Below, piece after piece: positions 12,567 to 54,473 of a stretch of 64,000 nt of DNA. Made by a program: the position numbers and the translations under genes. The notes beneath the pieces are model-generated. The model searched no databases. It had not been told where the DNA came from and saw only the letters and a program-made list of their open reading frames with translations. The stretch is from the NCBI RefSeq assembly GCF_002294725.1, contig NZ_NSFT01000003.1:186001-250000 (forward strand). The letters are read 5' to 3'. Source of the DNA: Mesorhizobium sp. WSM4313 (GTDB lineage Bacteria; Pseudomonadota; Alphaproteobacteria; Rhizobiales; Rhizobiaceae). How positions within the stretch are numbered: position 1 is the stretch's first letter; each line of letters begins with the position of its first letter.

Positions 12567-13637
12567 TTAGCCGTTCTTGAACAGCGCCAGGATCGACTGC
12601 GAGGAGCTGTTGGCGATCGACAGCGACTGGATGCCGAGCTGCTGCTGCACCTGCAGCGCCTGAAGGCGGGTCGATTCCTTGTTCATGTCGGCATCGACGA
12701 GCTGGCCGACGCCGCGGTCGATGGAGTCCATCAGGCTCTGGGTGAAGGTCTTCTGCAGGTCGATCGAGCTCTTGGCGGCGCCGAGCACGGTGGCGGCGTC
12801 GGTAAGCTGACTCATGACGTTGTCGATCTTGGTGACCATCTGGGTGATGATGTCGTCGGTCACGCCCGTTGCCGTGATGTCGAGATTGAAGGCGGAGACG
12901 TTGTCGATCTTGACGGGCGAGCCCGACACAGCGGCCTGGCCCGCGGTGTTGGCGGCGATGTCGGTGGCGCCGCCGGCGATCGAGGCCGCGTAAGCGGCAT
13001 CATATGCCGACTGGTCCGCAGCGGTGGAATAGATCGAAGTCTTGCGATCGAGAATGCCCTGGTTCTTGACGGCCGTTGCGAGGCCGGAATCGAACAGCTT
13101 GGTGCTCTCGACATTGATGTCGATGGTTCCGAGCGAGATGGCGCCGGACGAGGAGCGGTTGAACGAGGAGACGATCTGGGCGTCGGGCTGGACACCGTCA
13201 TTGGCGGCGGCGACTTGGGTCGACGTGACCGAAAGGTAATTCGAACCGGAGAAGGTGGCGGCATCGGCGAAGGACTTCATCTGCGCCTGAAGCGAGGTGA
13301 TTTCCGTCTGCGTCTTGGCTTTGTTGGCACCCGATTGGCCGACGCTCGAAAGCAGCTTGGTCTTGATCTGGCCGATCGTCGAAAGGACGTTGTTCATACC
13401 AGTGTAGGCTGTATCGACTTTCGAGGCGCCGAGGCCGAGCGCGTCCTGCACCGTGGAGAGTGCTTGATTGTCGGACCGCATGGTGGTGGCGATCGACCAG
13501 TAGGCGGCGTTGTCGGCGGCCTCGGAAACCCGATAGCCGGTCGAGATCCGGGCCTGCGTCTGCTCGAGCGATTTGTTGGTGGCGTTGAGGCTTTGAAGTG
13601 CAGTCAACGCCGCAGCGTTCGTCATGATGCTCGCCAA
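12567..13637 (-). CDS. Flagellin (TTG start)
   Basis: The 356-residue flagellin has the D0/D1 ends: N-terminal ASIMTNAAALTALQSLNAT, through ISTGYRVSEAADNAAYWSIA, and C-terminal VGQLVDADMNKESTRLQALQ with QQQLGIQSLSIANSSSQSIL. The central part (about 150-240) is variable. The start is TTG at 13637, supported by AAGGAG 8 bases upstream and by exact alignment with MASIMTN of the paralogue at 14880, where the codon is ATG. Flagellin leaders in alphaproteobacteria are bound by FlbT. Which of flaA-flaD this is cannot be decided here. It has its own leader and terminator, so it is probably monocistronic. Confidence 0.95.
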   Translation of the reverse strand: MASIMTNAAALTALQSLNATNKSLEQTQARISTGYRVSEAADNAAYWSIATTMRSDNQALSTVQDALGLGASKVDTAYTGMNNVLSTIGQIKTKLLSSVGQSGANKAKTQTEITSLQAQMKSFADAATFSGSNYLSVTSTQVAAANDGVQPDAQIVSSFNRSSSGAISLGTIDINVESTKLFDSGLATAVKNQGILDRKTSIYSTAADQSAYDAAYAASIAGGATDIAANTAGQAAVSGSPVKIDNVSAFNLDITATGVTDDIITQMVTKIDNVMSQLTDAATVLGAAKSSIDLQKTFTQSLMDSIDRGVGQLVDADMNKESTRLQALQVQQQLGIQSLSIANSSSQSILALFKNG

Positions 13638-13728
13638 GAAACTCGCTCCTTCTCAAAAGCCGGCATGCCACACAGGCCGGGATCGGCCCGTCCATCGGTT
13701 GCGATCATGCCGGTGGGCCGATTCGACA

Positions 13729-13770
13729 ACCTAAGTGATTGGTTAACCATACCTAGCGCGATATGGTTAA
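13729..13770 (-). promoter_or_regulatory. Candidate regulatory site upstream of the first flagellin gene
   Basis: On the minus strand the sequence reads TTAACC-N6-TTAGGT (13729-13746). The same pair with N7 spacing lies upstream of the other flagellin gene. Overlapping it is a perfect 9-bp inverted repeat, TTAACCATA (13743-13751) and TATGGTTAA (13762-13770), with a 10-base spacer. It lies about 92-133 bases from the start codon. I infer a promoter or activator site; no matching factor is known to me. Confidence 0.4.
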
Positions 13771-13838
13771 TGGCCTGTTAAAAGTAGGCTTCGGAGAAGT
13801 TAAGGAACGAGGGTTGCGCGAGCCTTGAGCAAACGCAA

Positions 13839-13867
13839 ATCGGGCCGCGCTTTTGGCGCGGCCCGAT
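13839..13867 (-). terminator. Rho-independent terminator of the 13894-14880 flagellin gene
   Basis: A perfect 12-bp stem ATCGGGCCGCGC (13839-13850) with GCGCGGCCCGAT (13856-13867) and a 5-base loop lies 27 bases past the stop codon. Bases after the stem on the minus strand are TTGCGTTT, a weak U tract. The stem resembles the terminator of the other flagellin gene. Confidence 0.82.
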
Positions 13868-13893
13868 GCTTTGGTCCGGTCAGTATGAAGCGA

Positions 13894-14880
13894 TCAGCCG
13901 CGGAAGAGCGACAGGATCGACTGCGACGAGCCGTTGGCGATCGACAGCGCCTGGACGCCAAGCTGCTGCTGAACCTGCAGCGCCTGGAGGCGGGTCGATT
14001 CCTTGTTCATGTCGGCATCGACGAGCTGGCCGACACCGCGATCGATGGAGTCCATCAGGCTCGAGGTGAAGGTCTTCTGCAGGTTGATCGAGCTCTTGGC
14101 GGCGCCGAGCTTGGTGGCGGCGTTCGTCATGTCCTTGAGCGCGGCGTCGACGACGTTCATCATCTGCTGGATCTGAGCGTCGCTGGCAGCGGTGGTGCCC
14201 GAGAAGATGGCCAGGCTGGCAACCGAATAGGTATCGCCGGCTGCCGGAGCTGCACCCAAGGTCGGGTTCTGAGCCGTGGCGGTCGTCGCGCCGGTGGTGC
14301 CGAGGCGAGCCGCATCGAGGATACCCTTCGAGGTCGGGGCAGCGCCCGAGTCATAGAGCTTGATGCTTTCCACATTGACGTCGATCGTCGAGATCGAAAC
14401 CGCGCCAGCGGCGCTGCGGTTGAAGGCCGAGACGATCTTGACGTCCGCCGCCGTGCCTGAAGCCGTCGAGACGGACAGCATGTTGGTGCCGGAGAAGGTG
14501 GCGCCGTCGGCATAGGCCTTCAGCTGCTTCTGAAGAGCGGCGATTTCGACCTGGGTCTTTTCCTTCGAAGCATCCGTCTGGCCGTAGGAAGCGGTCAGCT
14601 TCTGCTGGATCTGGTTGATGGTCGTGATCGCGCTGTCCATGCCGGTGTAGGCGGTGTCGACCTTCGAGGCGCCGAGGCCGAGCGCGTCCGAAACGGTGGA
14701 CATGGCCTGGTTGTCGGAGCGCATCGTGGTGGCAATCGACCAGTAAGCGGCGTTGTCGGAAGCCTGGGAAACGCGATAACCCGTCGAGATGCGGGACTGG
14801 GTGGTGTCGAGGTTCTTCTGGGTGGCGTTCAAGCTCTGCAGCGCGGTCAGCGCCGAGGCATTGGTCATGATACTGGCCAT
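13894..14880 (-). CDS. Flagellin
   Basis: The 328-residue flagellin is a close paralogue of the gene at 12567-13637. Both ends are nearly identical (MASIMTNASALTALQSLNAT; STRLQALQVQQQLGVQALSI), while the central region (about 150-240) differs and is shorter. It lacks a cleavable signal and is a filament subunit exported by the flagellar apparatus. Rhizobia build complex filaments from several flagellins, so the pair may form a mixed filament. A 245-base leader region upstream contains a hairpin and the motif shared with the other copy. Confidence 0.95.
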   Translation of the reverse strand: MASIMTNASALTALQSLNATQKNLDTTQSRISTGYRVSQASDNAAYWSIATTMRSDNQAMSTVSDALGLGASKVDTAYTGMDSAITTINQIQQKLTASYGQTDASKEKTQVEIAALQKQLKAYADGATFSGTNMLSVSTASGTAADVKIVSAFNRSAAGAVSISTIDVNVESIKLYDSGAAPTSKGILDAARLGTTGATTATAQNPTLGAAPAAGDTYSVASLAIFSGTTAASDAQIQQMMNVVDAALKDMTNAATKLGAAKSSINLQKTFTSSLMDSIDRGVGQLVDADMNKESTRLQALQVQQQLGVQALSIANGSSQSILSLFRG

Positions 14881-47695: not shown

Positions 47696-50600
47696 ATGGC
47701 AATTCAGGCAGCCGTTCATCACCTGACCCATTACAAATATGACCGGCCGGTGGTGCTCGGTCCCCAGGTGATCAGGCTGCAGCCGGCGCCGCATTCTCGC
47801 ACCAAGGTGCTCAGCCATTCGCTGAAGGTCGAGCCGGCAAACCACTTCGTCAATCTGCAGCAGGATCCCTACGGCAACTTCCTCGCCCGCTTCGTCTTTC
47901 CGGAGCCGGTGACGGAACTGAAGATCGAAGTCGACCTCGTCGCCGACATGACGGTCTATAATCCGTTCGACTTTTTTGTCGAGGAGAGCGCCGAGACCTT
48001 TCCGTTCGACTATCCCGAAGAGATCAGGGAAGACCTCGCCATCTACCGCGCGCCGGAGCCAGCCGGGCCGCTGTTGTCGAAATTCCTGGCAAGCATCGAC
48101 CGCAGCCCGACAAACACCGTCAATTTCCTCGTCGACCTCAATGCAAGGCTGCAGCGCGAGATCGCCTACATCGTGCGCATGGAGACCGGCGTCTACTCGC
48201 CGGAAGAGACACTGGCCGCGGCCAAGGGTTCGTGCCGGGATTCGAGCTGGCTCTTTGTGCAGATCCTGCGCAATCTCGGCATCGCCGCGCGCTTCGTCTC
48301 CGGCTACTTGATCCAGCTCAAGCCGGATCTCGTCTCGCTCGACGGACCGCCGGGAACCGCTATCGACTTCACCGACCTGCATGCCTGGTGCGAGGTCTAT
48401 ATTCCCGGCGCCGGCTGGATCGGCTTCGATCCGACCTCCGGCCTGCTCACCGGCGAAAGCCATGTGCCGCTGGCGGCGACGCCGCATTTCCGCAATGCCG
48501 CGCCGATCTCCGGCATGGCGAGCTTCGCCAATGTCGATTTCAACTTCGACATGCGCGTCGACCGGATTGCCGAGCATCCGCGCATCACCAAGCCGTTCTC
48601 GGACGAAAGCTGGGAGGCGCTCGATCGACTGGGTGAAAAAGTCGACGCGGTGCTGAAAGACGGCGACGTGCGGCTCACCATGGGCGGCGAGCCGACCTTC
48701 GTGTCGATCGACGATTTCGAGTCCGCCGAATGGAACACGGCTGCCGTCGGTCCGACCAAGCGCGACAAGGCGGATGAGTTGATCCGCCGGCTGCGCGAGC
48801 GGTTCGCGCCGGGCGGCTTCCTGCATTACGGCCAGGGCAAGTGGTATCCGGGCGAGAGCCTGCCGCGCTGGACCTTCTCGCTCTACTGGCGCACCGACGG
48901 CGAGCCGGTGTGGCGCGATCCGTCGCTGATCGCGCGGGAAAAGAGTGGCGCTGCCGTGGGACCGGAGCAGGCCGAGAGCCTGCTCACGGCGATCGCCGGC
49001 GAGCTCGGCATCGACAAAGCGATGGTGGGCGAGGCCTATGAGGATCCGGGCGAGTGGCTGCTCAAGGAAGGCAAGCTGCCGGACAATGTCGATCCTTCCA
49101 ATTCGAAGCTGGAAGACCCTGAAGAGCGGAGCCGCATGGCGCGCGTCTTCGAGCGTGGCCTGACCAAGCCGTCAGGCTATGTGCTGCCGGTGCAGCGCTG
49201 GAACAGCCAGGCCGCTGGACAGCGCTGGCGCTCGGAAAAATGGAAGACCAGGCGCGGGCGCCTGTTTCTGGTGCCGGGCGACTCTCCAGTCGGCTACCGC
49301 TTGCCGCTCGGTACGTTGCCCTATGTTCCGCCGGCGCAATTCCCTTACATCGTGCCCGTCGACCCCTCAGTGCCACGTGGCCCGCTGCCTGCGCGCGCCG
49401 AAATCCTGCCGGAAGCTCCGGCCGGCGGCGCGGACGAAATGGCGCGTCAGCAGGCTGAGGCCTCCTTCACCGCCGCCACGGCCCAGCAGGACCGGGTCGA
49501 GCAGCGACTGACCGAGATCGGCGGCGCGGTGCGGACCGCACTCACCGTCGAGCCGCGCGACGGCAGGCTCTGTGTGTTCATGCCGCCGGTCGAAGCGCTG
49601 GAGGATTATCTCGAACTGGTGGCGGCGGCGGAAAATGCTGCCAAGGCCATCGGGTTGCCGGTGCATATCGAGGGCTATGCTCCGCCGCACGACCCGCGCC
49701 TCAACGTCATCCGCGTCGCGCCGGATCCAGGCGTCATCGAGGTCAACATCCACCCGGCCGCCAACTGGCAGGAATGTGTCACGACAACCACAGCCATTTA
49801 CGAGGAAGCGCGGCAGTCGCGGCTCGGTACCGACAAGTTCATGATCGACGGCCGCCACACCGGCACCGGCGGCGGCAATCATGTCGTGGTCGGCGGCGCG
49901 ACGCCCAATGACAGCCCGTTCCTGCGCCGGCCAGACCTTCTGAAGAGCCTGGTGCTGCAATGGCAGCGGCATCCGTCCCTGTCCTACCTGTTTTCGGGCC
50001 TGTTCATCGGCCCGACCAGCCAGGCGCCGCGCATCGACGAGGCGCGGCACGATTCGCTCTACGAACTGGAGATCGCGCTGGCGCAGGTGCCGCATCCCGA
50101 GAAGGGCGAGGCGCCCTTGCCATGGCTGGTCGACCGGCTGTTCCGCAATCTCTTGACCGACGTGACCGGCAACACGCACCGTTCGGAAATCTGCATCGAC
50201 AAACTGTTCTCGCCGGATGGCCCGACCGGCCGGCTCGGGCTGGTCGAGTTCCGCGGCTTCGAGATGCCGCCCAATGCGCGCATGAGCCTCGCGCAGCAAT
50301 TGCTGGTGCGCGCGATCATCGCCCGCGCCTGGAGGAACCCGCTCGACGGACGCTTCGTGCGCTGGGGCACCTCGCTGCACGACCGTTTCATGCTGCCGCA
50401 CTACGTCTGGGCGGATTTCCTCGACGTGCTGGAGGATCTGAAGCTGAACGGCTTCGATTTCCGCCCCGAATGGTTCGCGGCCCAGCTCGAATTCCGTTTC
50501 CCGTTCTGCGGCGAGGTCCAACATGCCGGCGTCAAGCTGGAGTTGAGGCAGGCGCTAGAGCCGTGGCATGTGATGGGCGAGCAGGGCGCTATCGGCGGCA

Positions 50601-51046
50601 CGGTCCGCTTCGTCGATTCCTCGGTCGAGCGGCTGCAGGTGCGAACCGAAGGCCTCAATCCGGAGCGTCACGCCATCGTCTGCAACGGCCGCCTCGTGCC
50701 GATGAAGGTCACCGACAATCGCGAGGTCGCGGTGGCCGGCGTTCGCTTCAAGGCTTGGCAGCCGGCGTCGGGCCTGCATCCGGCGCTGCCGGTCAACACG
50801 CCGCTGGTCTTCGACATCTATGACCGCTGGTCGGGCCGCTCGGTCGGCGGCTGCGTCTACCATGTCGCGCATCCGGGCGGCCGCAACTACGACACCTTCC
50901 CAGTCAACGGCAACGAGGCCGAGGCGCGACGGCTTGCCCGGTTCGAACCGCGCGGCCACACGCCGGGCGGCTATGTGCTGCGTGACGAAGAAGCTGCTGA
51001 AGAGTTCCCCATGACCCTTGACCTCAGGCAGCCGGCGAGATTCTGA
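47696..51046 (+). CDS. Transglutaminase-like protein fused to DUF2126 (putative amidoligase)
   Basis: The 1116-residue product has an N-terminal beta domain (about 1-90) and a transglutaminase-like core with triad Cys180 (KGSCRDSSW), His229 (DLHAWCEVY) and Asp245 (WIGFDPTSG). A long DUF2126 region follows (about 320-1110). DUF2126 is described in Pfam as a putative amidoligase; recognisable segments are [33 protein letters not shown] and [13 protein letters not shown]. No signal peptide is seen, so it acts in the cytoplasm. The next gene starts six bases downstream. The predicted chemistry is peptide bond making or breaking; no substrate is known. Confidence 0.9.
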
Positions 51047-51052
51047 TCGACA

Positions 51053-53464
51053 ATGGCCAAGGGGAATCAGAGACGGGTGGGCGGCAGGCCGCGGGCGCCG
51101 AGCCTGCTGGAAAGCTACCGACCGATCGAAGGCGTCGTCGACGAGATGGTCGACGCGGCCGGCAGCCCGCGCCCGGCCTGGCGCTCCTTCATCGACGCGC
51201 TCGACGATCTCGGGGCGGATCGGCTCGGGCAGCGGTTTGCCCGCGCCGACCAGTATCTGCGCGATGCCGGCGTCTATTACCGTGTCTATGAGCAGGCTGG
51301 CGCCAATGAGCGGGAGTGGCCGCTCGCGCATGTCCCGCTGCTGATCGACGAGAAGGAATGGGCCGAGATCAGCGCCGGCCTCGTCCAGCGCGCCGACCTG
51401 TTCGAGGCGATCCTGTCCGACATTTACGGGCCGAACCGGTTGGTCGAGAAAGGCATTCTGCCGGCCGGCCTGATTGCAGCCAGCCCGGAATATCTGCGCC
51501 CGATAGCCGGCGTCCGGCCGGCCAACGGGCATTTTCTGCATATGGTCGCCTTCGAGCTCGGCCGTGGCCCGGACGGCCGCTGGTGGGTGCTGGGCGATCG
51601 CACCCAGGCGCCGTCGGGCGCAGGCTTCGCGCTGGAGAACCGCGTCGCCACAACGCGCGCGCTGTCGGATATCTATGGCGAGATGCATGTGCATCGGCTT
51701 GCCGGCTTTTTCCGCCGCTTCCGCGACGCGCTGAACGCTATGGCAAGGGAGTCGGGCGGCCGCGTCGCCATCCTGACGCCGGGACCGCTCAACGAAACCT
51801 ATTACGAGCACGCCTATATCGCCCGCTATCTGGGCATCATGCTGCTCGAGGGCGAGGACCTGACCGTTTCCGGCGGCAGGCTGATGGTGCGAACCGTTTC
51901 CGGCCTGATGCCGATCGGCGTCCTGTGGCGGAGGCTCGATGCCGCTTTCGCCGATCCGCTGGAGCTCAGGCCGGACTCGCAGATCGGCACACCGGGATTG
52001 GTCGAGGCAATCCGGCGCGGCTCCGTATCGGCCGTCAATGCGCTGGGTTCGGGCCTGATGGAGACGCGGGCATTGCTGTCGTTCCTGCCCAGGATCGCGC
52101 GAGAACTGCAAGGTGACAATCTCAAGCTGCCGAGCATCGCCACCTGGTGGTGCGGGCAAGAGGCGGAGCGCGCGCATGTGCTGGCCAATATCGACCGCAT
52201 GGTGGTCGGCCCGGCGCTCTCGACCCGGCTTGCCTTCGAGGACGATGGCGCGACCCGGCTCGGCTCGTCCCTTTCGGCCGGCGAGCGGGCCGAGCTCATC
52301 GCGCGCATCGAGGCGGACGGCGCCGGCTTCGTCGGGCAGGAAGCCGTGACGTTGTCGACCACGCCGGTGTTCGTCGACGGCTTGCTGGAGCCGCGGCCTG
52401 CCAGCCTGCGCGTCTATCTGGCGCGCACGCCGGAAGGCTGGACGGTGATGCCCGGCGGCTTCGCCCGTGTCGGATTTTCGCTCGACCCGACGGCGATCGC
52501 CATGCAGCGCGGCGGCCAGGCGGCGGATGTCTGGGTGGTCAGCGACAGGCCGGTCGAGCGCGAGACATTGTTGCCGCAAGAGCATGACGGCTTCACCCGC
52601 ACCATGCCGGGCAGCCTGCCCAGCCGCGCGGCCGAGAACCTGACCTGGCTCGGACGCTATATCGAGCGCTCCGAAGACACGGTGCGCGTGCTGCGCGCCT
52701 ATCACGTGCGGCTTGCCGAGACGTCCGATCCGGATATGCCGCTGCTTGCCGATATCAGGGACTATCTGGAACCGTTCGGCATCGACGTCGAAACGGCGAT
52801 ACCACCGGGGTTGATCGGCACTTTGGACAGCGCGGTCTACAGCGCCGGCCAGATTCGCGACCGCTTCTCTCCCGATGGCTGGCTGGCGCTGAAGGATCTG
52901 TCCAAGACCATCCACAAATTCGCGGAGACGGTCGCGCCCGGAGACGACGCGACGCGTGCGATGACGGTGATGCTGCGCAAGCTTGCCGGCTTTTCCGGCC
53001 TGCTGCACGAGAACATGTACCGCTTCACCGGTTGGCGCTTCCTGGAGATCGGCCGCAGGCTGGAACGCGGCATCCAGATCGCGCGCACGCTCAGCCAGCT
53101 GACAAGGAATGAGGTGCCGGAAGGGGCGCTGGACATGATGCTGGAGATCGGCGACAGCGTCATGACCCATCGCCGGCAATATCCGGTGCAGGCCGGGCGG
53201 CACACGGTTATCGACCTGCTCGCGCTCGACCCGCTCAATCCTCGCTCGATCTTGTTCCAGCTGGAGCGGCTGAAGGCCGAGATCGGCATGCTGCCTTCGA
53301 TCGGCGGCGAGGGGCACATGTCACCCGCCGCCAAGGAGATCCTGCGGCTCAACACGGCAATAGCCGTCATGGAGCCATCGGACATGAGCGCCAAGGCGCT
53401 CGACGACCTCGCCGGCCAGATCGGCGATCTCTACAACAGCCTCTCCAAGGCCTATTTCGGTTAG
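51053..53464 (+). CDS. Circularly permuted ATP-grasp (type 2) fused to alpha-E domain
   Basis: The 803-residue product joins two families usually encoded separately. Residues about 1-490 are a circularly permuted ATP-grasp (LLIDEKEWAEISAGLVQRAD; GDRTQAPSGAGFALENR; ILTPGPLNETYYEHAYIARY). Residues about 500-803 are an alpha-E helical domain (LPSRAAENLTWLGRYIERSE). Comparative work on amidoligases (Iyer, Aravind and colleagues) grouped these with transglutaminase-like proteins as likely peptide-forming systems. It is translated right after the DUF2126 gene and followed by a second transglutaminase gene. Cytoplasmic; substrate unknown. Confidence 0.92.
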   Translation: MAKGNQRRVGGRPRAPSLLESYRPIEGVVDEMVDAAGSPRPAWRSFIDALDDLGADRLGQRFARADQYLRDAGVYYRVYEQAGANEREWPLAHVPLLIDEKEWAEISAGLVQRADLFEAILSDIYGPNRLVEKGILPAGLIAASPEYLRPIAGVRPANGHFLHMVAFELGRGPDGRWWVLGDRTQAPSGAGFALENRVATTRALSDIYGEMHVHRLAGFFRRFRDALNAMARESGGRVAILTPGPLNETYYEHAYIARYLGIMLLEGEDLTVSGGRLMVRTVSGLMPIGVLWRRLDAAFADPLELRPDSQIGTPGLVEAIRRGSVSAVNALGSGLMETRALLSFLPRIARELQGDNLKLPSIATWWCGQEAERAHVLANIDRMVVGPALSTRLAFEDDGATRLGSSLSAGERAELIARIEADGAGFVGQEAVTLSTTPVFVDGLLEPRPASLRVYLARTPEGWTVMPGGFARVGFSLDPTAIAMQRGGQAADVWVVSDRPVERETLLPQEHDGFTRTMPGSLPSRAAENLTWLGRYIERSEDTVRVLRAYHVRLAETSDPDMPLLADIRDYLEPFGIDVETAIPPGLIGTLDSAVYSAGQIRDRFSPDGWLALKDLSKTIHKFAETVAPGDDATRAMTVMLRKLAGFSGLLHENMYRFTGWRFLEIGRRLERGIQIARTLSQLTRNEVPEGALDMMLEIGDSVMTHRRQYPVQAGRHTVIDLLALDPLNPRSILFQLERLKAEIGMLPSIGGEGHMSPAAKEILRLNTAIAVMEPSDMSAKALDDLAGQIGDLYNSLSKAYFG

Positions 53465-53587
53465 AGCATTTCCAGCGAAAAGGATCGCCTTCAATGCTCT
53501 ATCTCTCTGTTTTTGCGCAATTCCGGACGCAAGGCTACGGCGAAGCCGCCGAGCCCAACGGCTGCGCTTTTTTGCTGGAATTGCCCT
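53464..53587. repeat. RIME-like intergenic mosaic repeat, copy 6
   Basis: The only gap within the three-gene amidoligase set is filled by this element. GAGCATT...AATGCTC (53464-53500) and GCGCAATTCCGGACG...GCTGGAATTGC (53516-53585) are its two modules. The second has about 35 extra bases (AAGGCTACGGCGAAGCCG and on) in the loop. It begins on the last base of the preceding stop codon and ends just before the next ATG. Confidence 0.75.
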
Positions 53588-53588
53588 A

Positions 53589-54473
53589 ATGCTCTACGAC
53601 ATCAAACTCCATTTGCATTACGACTACGCCGCTGCCGCCGGTGGCGGACGGCACCAGGTGCGCGTCATGCCGCAGACGATCGCCGGAGTGCAGCGCGTGA
53701 TCGCCGCCTCGCTGTCGTTCCAGCCGTCGCCGGCCGAGCGTGCCGATTTTTCCGATTTCTTCGGGAACAACGTCACCTCGATCGCTTTTCGCGACGCGCA
53801 TGAGACGCTCGACATCCGCATGAGCGCGCGCGTGTCTGTCTCGCGGCCCGAGCCAGGTCTCGATGTCTCGCCCGATATAAGCGGGCTGAGGTCGGAGCTC
53901 GATCTGGTACGCTCGCTATTGCCGTCCGCGCCGCATCATTTCCTCGCCGCCAGCGACCATGCCGGCATCGATGCGGCGATCACGGCCTATGCGCGGGAAA
54001 GCCTGGCCGGCTCAGCGGTGGCAACGGCGGCCGATCTCTGCAACCGCATCCATCGCGATTTCACCTATGACGGCAAGGCAACCACGGTGCAGACGCGGGC
54101 AAGCGACGCCTTCGCGCTGAAACGCGGCGTCTGCCAGGATTTCTCGCATATCATGATCGCCGGCCTGCGCGGGCTTGGCATTCCCGCCGGTTATGTCAGC
54201 GGCTTTTTGCGCACGATCCCGCCCAAGGGCAAGCCTCGGCTCGAGGGCGCCGATGCCATGCATGCCTGGGTCAAGGCCTGGTGCGGACGCGATGCCGGCT
54301 GGCAGGAGTTCGACCCGACCAACGGCATAAGGGCGAGCAACGACCATATCACGGTCGGCTACGGCCGCGACTATTCCGACGTCGCGCCGATCGTCGGCGT
54401 GTTGAAGACCACCGGCGGCCAGGTCGGCGAGCAAGCGGTCGACGTCATTCCGGTCGTCGTCGAAAAGGTGTAA
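53589..54473 (+). CDS. Transglutaminase-like cysteine protease-fold protein
   Basis: The 294-residue product has an N-terminal beta domain (MLYDIKLHLHYDYAAAAGGG) and a transglutaminase core with Cys182 (KRGVCQDFSH), His225 (DAMHAWVKAW) and Asp242 (WQEFDPTNGI). It is the shorter sibling of the N domain of the 47696 gene. Bacterial members mostly act as peptidases or amidases rather than cross-linkers. It has no signal peptide. It belongs to the same predicted operon, although a RIME-like repeat lies before it. Confidence 0.92.
   Translation: MLYDIKLHLHYDYAAAAGGGRHQVRVMPQTIAGVQRVIAASLSFQPSPAERADFSDFFGNNVTSIAFRDAHETLDIRMSARVSVSRPEPGLDVSPDISGLRSELDLVRSLLPSAPHHFLAASDHAGIDAAITAYARESLAGSAVATAADLCNRIHRDFTYDGKATTVQTRASDAFALKRGVCQDFSHIMIAGLRGLGIPAGYVSGFLRTIPPKGKPRLEGADAMHAWVKAWCGRDAGWQEFDPTNGIRASNDHITVGYGRDYSDVAPIVGVLKTTGGQVGEQAVDVIPVVVEKV

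Follow-up and report, generated by a model that had tools for sequence, protein, structure and literature searches.

We have analyzed a stretch of 64,000 nucleotides from Mesorhizobium sp. WSM4313 (contig NZ_NSFT01000003.1, positions 186,001 to 250,000), which we call the window, and within it three successive genes that we term A, B and C. Gene A encodes a transglutaminase-like domain fused to DUF2126, B a circularly permuted ATP-grasp fused to an alpha-E domain, and C a second transglutaminase-like protein. The original prediction, made from the letters of the window, envisaged an operon with two working ATP-dependent ligases and two papain-fold enzymes. We find that the ATP-grasp of B has lost residues of its ATP site. 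Because the Mg and ATP residues of B are gone, the operon would contain at most one ligase, the putative ligase DUF2126; and because this loss is combined with purifying selection on B, the protein looks like a maintained pseudoenzyme. The picture of two working ligases is thus not supported, and the conserved operon, the intact catalytic triads and the cytosolic look of the proteins have stood.

The ATP-Grasp Domain of B

Over its ATP-grasp part, B is homologous to a permuted ATP-grasp of known structure (3N6X, E = 1.3e-134). We aligned all 48 B proteins with stand-alone ATP-grasps of the type present in operons for the proteasome homologue Anbu (22, and later 23, of 24 such proteins). The Mg motif, the ATP lysine and the glycine-rich loop are kept in 23 of 23 of these intact relatives. 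Neither the ExN motif nor the paired loop glycines are present in any of the 48 B proteins, and the lysine (Lys383 in the intact family) is retained in 12, with the B of the window among those that lack it. In the numbering of the intact family, Glu175 is replaced by Gly, Ser or Ala in 41 of 48 and Asn177 by Arg or His in 46 of 48. A largely conserved motif, D-R-x-Q-A-P-S-G, stands in place of the old Mg motif. B proteins from genomes without DUF2126 are no different, with ExN, paired glycines and lysine each found in none of 11. The prediction had named loss of ATP-site residues as something that would speak against it, and for the ATP-grasp of B that loss is what was found.

The role of the missing residues can be compared with that in E. 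coli glutathionylspermidine synthetase/amidase (Gss, 2io7). The best profile alignment puts D318, E330 and N332 of Gss on D162, E175 and N177 of the intact family, with E = 0.04, a value that is not significant alone. The three Gss residues serve as ligands of Mg and ATP, and the alignment thereby supports the same role for the residues lost from B, which match the ATP-grasp signature.

The remainder of the ATP-grasp fold is conserved in B, and the loop positions are hardly conserved among B proteins. The ratio of nonsynonymous to synonymous substitution (dN/dS), calculated with six relatives, is 0.14-0.26 for the ATP-grasp part and 0.10-0.27 for the alpha-E part. The alpha-E domain has kept its ER motifs (E538-R539 and E671-R672) in at least 47 of 48 proteins, and has lost several residues that are invariant in stand-alone alpha-E proteins. 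In a maximum-likelihood tree, a branch with 100% support sets the intact ATP-grasps apart from the other proteins; the tree was made by a quick method with a midpoint root, and the position of two long rows in it is uncertain. The B proteins that occur without A do not group together in it but are interspersed with those that occur with A.

The Domains of A and C

The transglutaminase-like domains present a different state of preservation. The triad C180/H229/D245 is invariant in all 43 aligned A proteins (43 of 53, these being the window's and 52 others), as is C182/H225/D242 in all 47 aligned C proteins (47 of 50). The catalytic residues that the prediction described as intact are therefore invariant in both alignments, and the papain-fold domains of A and C look active.

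The DUF2126 part of A matches PF09899 with 1351 bits, over the curated cut-off and over model positions 3-826 of 826. Its description as an amidoligase fold rests on the Pfam name, "putative amidoligase". Iyer and colleagues are said to have placed DUF2126 among permuted glutamine synthetase-like ligases in 2009, and we take the motifs E851-x-R853 and G723 to H729 of A to resemble those of glutamine synthetase. A Pfam scan of 43 DUF2126 members gave no weak match to glutamine synthetase.

A, B and C as a Conserved Unit

We surveyed 299 sampled genomes of Pseudomonadota, and found DUF2126 in 92. From these we took 53 loci, about one per genus (two for two genera), with G049 and G152 omitted for their position at contig edges; in the operon count, four genes that a length filter had dropped (at L131, L159, L147 and L153) were entered by hand. 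All three genes are present together at 47 of the 53 loci. They are contiguous, on one strand and in the order A-B-C at 40, and otherwise arranged at 7. At the other 6 there is no nearby B-C pair, and at one of these (L163, G218) A has either diverged strongly or been split over two open reading frames (ORFs). The 80 loci of B relatives, some of them cut by contig ends, hold 72 A-like ORFs that cover at least 90% of A. Given these 72 ORFs, and the contiguity of A-B-C at 40 of 53 distant loci, the clustering of the genes is far beyond chance. The survey bears out the operon as a conserved unit, and it answers the concern, raised with the prediction, that the three genes might rarely occur together. 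The trio is also found on an Acidobacteriota plasmid. The domains of A, B and C have dN/dS values of 0.08-0.28 (six Mesorhizobium-like relatives each).

Co-occurrence across Genomes

Permuted ATP-grasps were found in 172 of the 299 genomes and Anbu homologues in 115. An intact-type permuted ATP-grasp is present in all 92 DUF2126-positive genomes, and DUF2126 in none of the 127 that are ATP-grasp-negative. The intact type was called by score (best E <=4.3e-131 per genome, compared with 3.2e-112 for the best of the 48 B proteins and the same model); the intactness of the residues was read in 23 sequences, and for the remaining genomes it is inferred from the score. Since DUF2126 was never found without an intact-type ATP-grasp, the operon probably belongs to a larger system.

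Two or more copies of the permuted ATP-grasp are carried by 87 of the 92 DUF2126-positive genomes and by 11 of the 207 others. Each of these 11 holds a B-type protein, with a C-like gene beside it in 10; B is missing from the 5 DUF2126-positive genomes that have one copy only. Anbu is found with a permuted ATP-grasp in 113 of the 115 Anbu-positive genomes. Once an ATP-grasp is present, Anbu is independent of DUF2126, occurring in 58 of 92 genomes with DUF2126 and 55 of 80 without (p = 0.52, Fisher's test, phylogeny ignored). The picture that emerges is of a core, made up of the intact ATP-grasp together with alpha-E, to which two further modules may be added, one being Anbu and the other B-C, in most cases accompanied by A.

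Some individual genomes illustrate the range of arrangements. In two Mesorhizobium genomes (L284/G170 and L285/G172) B and C are kept and A is absent from the locus, with no DUF2126 or Anbu in the genome. The Enterobacter roggenkampii plasmid NZ_CP116251.1 (6603-15794) carries the full set of intact ATP-grasp, alpha-E, A, B and C, flanked on both sides by insertion-sequence transposase genes and near arsC.

Organization of the Locus

The coordinates of the genes, and of the two altered sites in B, are collected in Table 1. The positions and domain assignments of the three genes given in the prediction hold.

Table 1. Genes of the operon and altered sites of B, in coordinates of the window
Feature	Position	Strand	Description	Basis
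Gene A	47696-51046	+	1116 amino acids; transglutaminase-like domain (residues 6-246) fused to DUF2126, putative amidoligase (278-1111)	Pfam
Gene B	51053-53464	+	803 amino acids; circularly permuted ATP-grasp (95-473) with degenerate ATP/Mg site, fused to alpha-E (522-802)	Pfam, alignment
Gene C	53589-54473	+	294 amino acids; stand-alone transglutaminase-like protein, triad C182/H225/D242	Pfam, alignment
Degenerate Mg-site motif of B	51587-51601	+	V-L-G-D-R (residues 179-183); V-L-E-D-N in intact paralogues	Alignment
Lost lysine and Gly-rich loop of B	52208-52231	+	Residues 386-393; G386 where intact paralogues have K	Alignment

A and B are separated by 6 bp, and B and C by 124 bp. The Pfam matches are PF08379, PF01841 and PF09899 for A, PF14403/PF04174 (460 and 290 bits) and PF04168 (alpha-E, 186 bits) for B, and PF08379 and PF01841 for C, for which the closest solved structure is 3isr. 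Among the 80 best relatives of B, 76 are named Mesorhizobium, with identities of 73-99%. The N-termini are of low hydrophobicity by a Kyte-Doolittle window, a crude test rather than a signal-peptide predictor; the best 19-residue mean with a start in the first 25 residues is -0.05 for A, 0.22 for B and 0.92 for C. This agrees with the predicted lack of signal peptides, and the proteins look cytosolic.

The operon is bordered on its 5' side by genes for a LysR regulator and an acyl-CoA dehydrogenase, and on its 3' side by glycosyltransferases and topoisomerase IB. No Anbu gene lies in the A-B-C cluster. One is present elsewhere in the genome, in a second, classical operon that comprises an intact ATP-grasp, a stand-alone alpha-E, a transglutaminase-like protein and Anbu. 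At other loci, a Peptidase_Mx-like metallopeptidase gene is found in the fetched stretch of 9 of 58 sources (L156, at 13419-14609, and L085, L121, L122, L125, L138, L147, L159 and L166), of which Pfam confirms the L156 copy only, as a zinc ribbon and Peptidase_Mx; it was seen in none of the 80 Mesorhizobium-like loci by a crude gene caller that is likely to miss some. Response-regulator-like genes recur in the fetched stretch of 5 loci (L118, L152, L155, L162 and L165), which may be chance as these are common genes.

A role in anti-phage defense was considered and rejected, as no PADLOC model matched (0 families for A, B and C). Matches to B were found in 4 of 50,697 phage records, at 26-30% identity. 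Two Acinetobacter phage MD-2021a records (232 kb and 305 kb) annotate DUF404 and DUF403 genes, and are possibly bacterial contigs.

Nitrogen Control of Related Operons

Published expression data connect relatives of the operon with nitrogen. In an ntrC mutant of Burkholderia cenocepacia the genes I35_5080-5083, annotated as DUF404/407, DUF403, transglutaminase-like and large transglutaminase-like, are down by 8.2, 9.4, 9.4 and 6.0 fold, respectively (PMC5491218). In another strain of B. cenocepacia the gene order is intact ATP-grasp, alpha-E, transglutaminase, A, B and C, on account of which I35_5083 is assigned by synteny as the orthologue of A. In the 21.4 kb of this region a single sigma-54-like site with <=1 mismatch is found on either strand, and it precedes the first gene, as its start is inferred, by 66 bp. 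In Pseudomonas putida, nitrogen limitation or nitrate induces the Anbu operon, PP_2685-2688 (PMC8050072, PMC7801951, PMC3325844). Marine metagenomes show covariation of urea genes with the alpha-E, ATP-grasp and transglutaminase-like domains (PMC3597751). Nitrogen regulation is shown in Burkholderia and P. putida only.

Sigma-54-like sites (<=2 mismatches in 350 bp) precede A on the forward strand at 10 of 53 loci, nine of the 10 at -53 to -90. The same number (10 of 53) was found on the reverse strand, where some belong to divergent intact ATP-grasp genes, and shuffled sequences gave a mean of 1.75. With <=1 mismatch the figures are 3 forward, 4 reverse and 0.05 shuffled. Before the intact ATP-grasp genes there are 10 of 24 forward, 1 reverse and 0.90 shuffled. 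Sigma-54 control of the window's operon was itself rejected, there being no -24/-12 site.

On the Acidithiobacillus caldus plasmid NZ_CP005987.1 (1843-22166), DUF2126, ATP-grasp, alpha-E and two Anbu genes lie within 23 kb that also hold ntrB, ntrC and genes for a Cache-domain protein, a porin, a permease and an aliphatic amidase. A is divided there, with one ORF for its transglutaminase part and another for DUF2126, and no fused B was found.

Discussion

We tentatively propose, at well short of even confidence, that A, B and C form a conserved cytosolic module of amide chemistry for nitrogen salvage, in which DUF2126 is the ligase and B a non-catalytic partner. As the operon's only ligase, DUF2126 would use ATP to form a bond between a carboxylate and an amine, whether of an amino acid, a polyamine or a peptide. 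The transglutaminase-like domain of A, together with C, would cleave or transfer bonds of the same kind. B would ligate nothing; it may bind substrate or product and act in regulation or delivery as a subunit docked on the other proteins, possibly including the intact ATP-grasp/alpha-E pair. The module would serve to salvage nitrogen, or to retain it, under scarcity, as suggested by the NtrC dependence of the Burkholderia orthologues and by the induction of the P. putida Anbu operon on nitrogen limitation.

A number of observations weigh against this proposal. The P. putida genes PP_2686-2688 rise in an rpoN mutant (14-20 fold) as much as in the wild type (11-15 fold), which disfavors sigma-54 dependence in that organism and lowers our confidence in the proposal, and in the wild type the rise of PP_2685 (Anbu) is only 1.12 fold (PMC7801951). 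The available part of a Caulobacter ntrC paper names no gene of the A-B-C/Anbu system. Because the 500 bp that precede A in the window hold no sigma-54 site (<=2 mismatches), and none was found ahead of the second operon either, nitrogen control of the operon in Mesorhizobium is unsupported. As to the ligase, hhalign gave no significant match of DUF2126 with glutamine synthetase (19 and then 57 rows), and nothing with GCS2 (30 rows) or Amidoligase_2 (3 rows). The AlphaFold2 model of A has a mean predicted local distance difference test score (pLDDT) of 34, from an alignment that is nearly all Mesorhizobium; a structure model of B, from an alignment of the same composition, has a mean of 43. 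B-C does something without DUF2126, as B persists in 11 genomes that lack DUF2126, with C adjoining in 10. Finally, a published pull-down of the Yersinia bercovieri operon proteins gave no specific complex with Anbu.

B itself may have an unusual ATP site. Asp or Glu is kept at the first Mg position in 48 of 48 B proteins, R445 in 47 and D483 in 46, in addition to the lysine in 12, and the new, largely conserved D-R-x-Q-A-P-S-G motif could be read as part of a re-built site. On that reading B is an active ligase and the two-ligase picture stands. We regard this as very doubtful, given that none of 59 B proteins keeps both the Glu and the Asn of the Mg motif, none keeps the paired loop glycines, and the loop positions are so little conserved among them.

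Protein tagging would account for the same set of domains, with ligases that build a small peptide or attach it to proteins, and transglutaminase-like and Anbu enzymes that remove or process it. A peptide-tagging system of this kind was reportedly predicted by Iyer and colleagues in 2009. The idea appears in two Anbu papers (PMC5666114, PMC6376114), as does the link between ATP-grasp, alpha-E, transglutaminase and Anbu. The Y. bercovieri ATP-grasp is reported to release phosphate from ATP, and Anbu to have shown no peptidase or amidase activity on the substrates assayed in one such study. The near-constant company of Anbu and the permuted ATP-grasp fits such a system. The lack of linkage of Anbu to DUF2126 once an ATP-grasp is present, and its absence from 34 of the 92 DUF2126 genomes, do not, and the operon's own ATP-grasp, B, is without ATP-site residues. 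Nor was a recurrent gene for a small peptide found, in a survey of ORFs of >=100 amino acids. Tagging is in our view possible, if somewhat improbable. It is rather unlikely that the product is instead a small secondary metabolite or storage compound, such as a short non-ribosomal peptide or a gamma-glutamyl amide, made for an end other than salvage and edited by the transglutaminase-like enzymes. The union of ligase-like and amidase-like domains in one protein would suit this, as would the induction of related P. putida operon genes along with nitrate and urea genes and the association of a COG2308 regulatory region with nodule competition in Sinorhizobium meliloti (PMC8407117). On the other side, no exporter, resistance gene, carrier or tailoring enzyme recurs in our crude survey of neighbors, where, besides family genes and ORFs likely to be in the wrong frame, we found just the response-regulator-like genes (5 loci) and the zinc metallopeptidase (9 of 58 sources).

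The salvage proposal can be taken a step further, to a form that we consider unlikely. B would be a fused and catalytically silenced paralogue of the ATP-grasp/alpha-E pair, and would serve within a hetero-complex to regulate it or to pass on substrate. Two different amide bonds would be formed in this complex by DUF2126 and the intact ATP-grasp of the other locus, and both would be opened again by the papain-fold domains, giving a reversible, nitrogen-controlled cycle of amide conjugation. We know of no description of such a cycle in bacteria.

The operon may be compared with several known systems. It shares with the Anbu operon (of Y. bercovieri, of P. putida as PP_2685-2688, and the second operon here) homologous proteins and the order ATP-grasp, alpha-E, transglutaminase; it differs in the fusion of ATP-grasp to alpha-E, in the lost ATP site, in having no Anbu and in the transglutaminase-DUF2126 protein that comes first. 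Gss works in the way proposed for A, with a papain-fold amidase joined to an amide ligase, and its Mg motif maps, by the weak alignment noted above, onto the intact permuted ATP-grasp. However, the putative ligase family in A is a different one, DUF2126, and B has no Mg motif, and we claim no homology at the level of sequence. In the gamma-glutamyl-amine routes (PuuA, GMAS), amine ligation by a glutamine synthetase-like enzyme is followed by papain-like hydrolysis under nitrogen limitation; for DUF2126, profile comparison found no similarity to glutamine synthetase or GCS2. The network of Iyer, Abhiman, Burroughs and Aravind (2009) reportedly comprised permuted ATP-grasp, permuted glutamine synthetase-like ligase, alpha-E, and papain-fold and Ntn-fold peptidases, and to this predicted peptide-tagging network the present analysis adds co-occurrence counts and the Burkholderia synteny. 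The association of the families is already known, and is named in the two Anbu papers (PMC5666114, PMC6376114). In the literature searched we found no functional study of DUF2126 or B, and no product or phenotype for the operon.

The module is present in about one third of the sampled Pseudomonadota genomes, as judged by DUF2126 (92 of 299). If B is no ligase, then DUF2126 and the other operon's intact ATP-grasp are the places to look for the ATP-dependent step, with B as a partner. The link with nitrogen limitation in Burkholderia and Pseudomonas provides a growth condition in which to seek the product.

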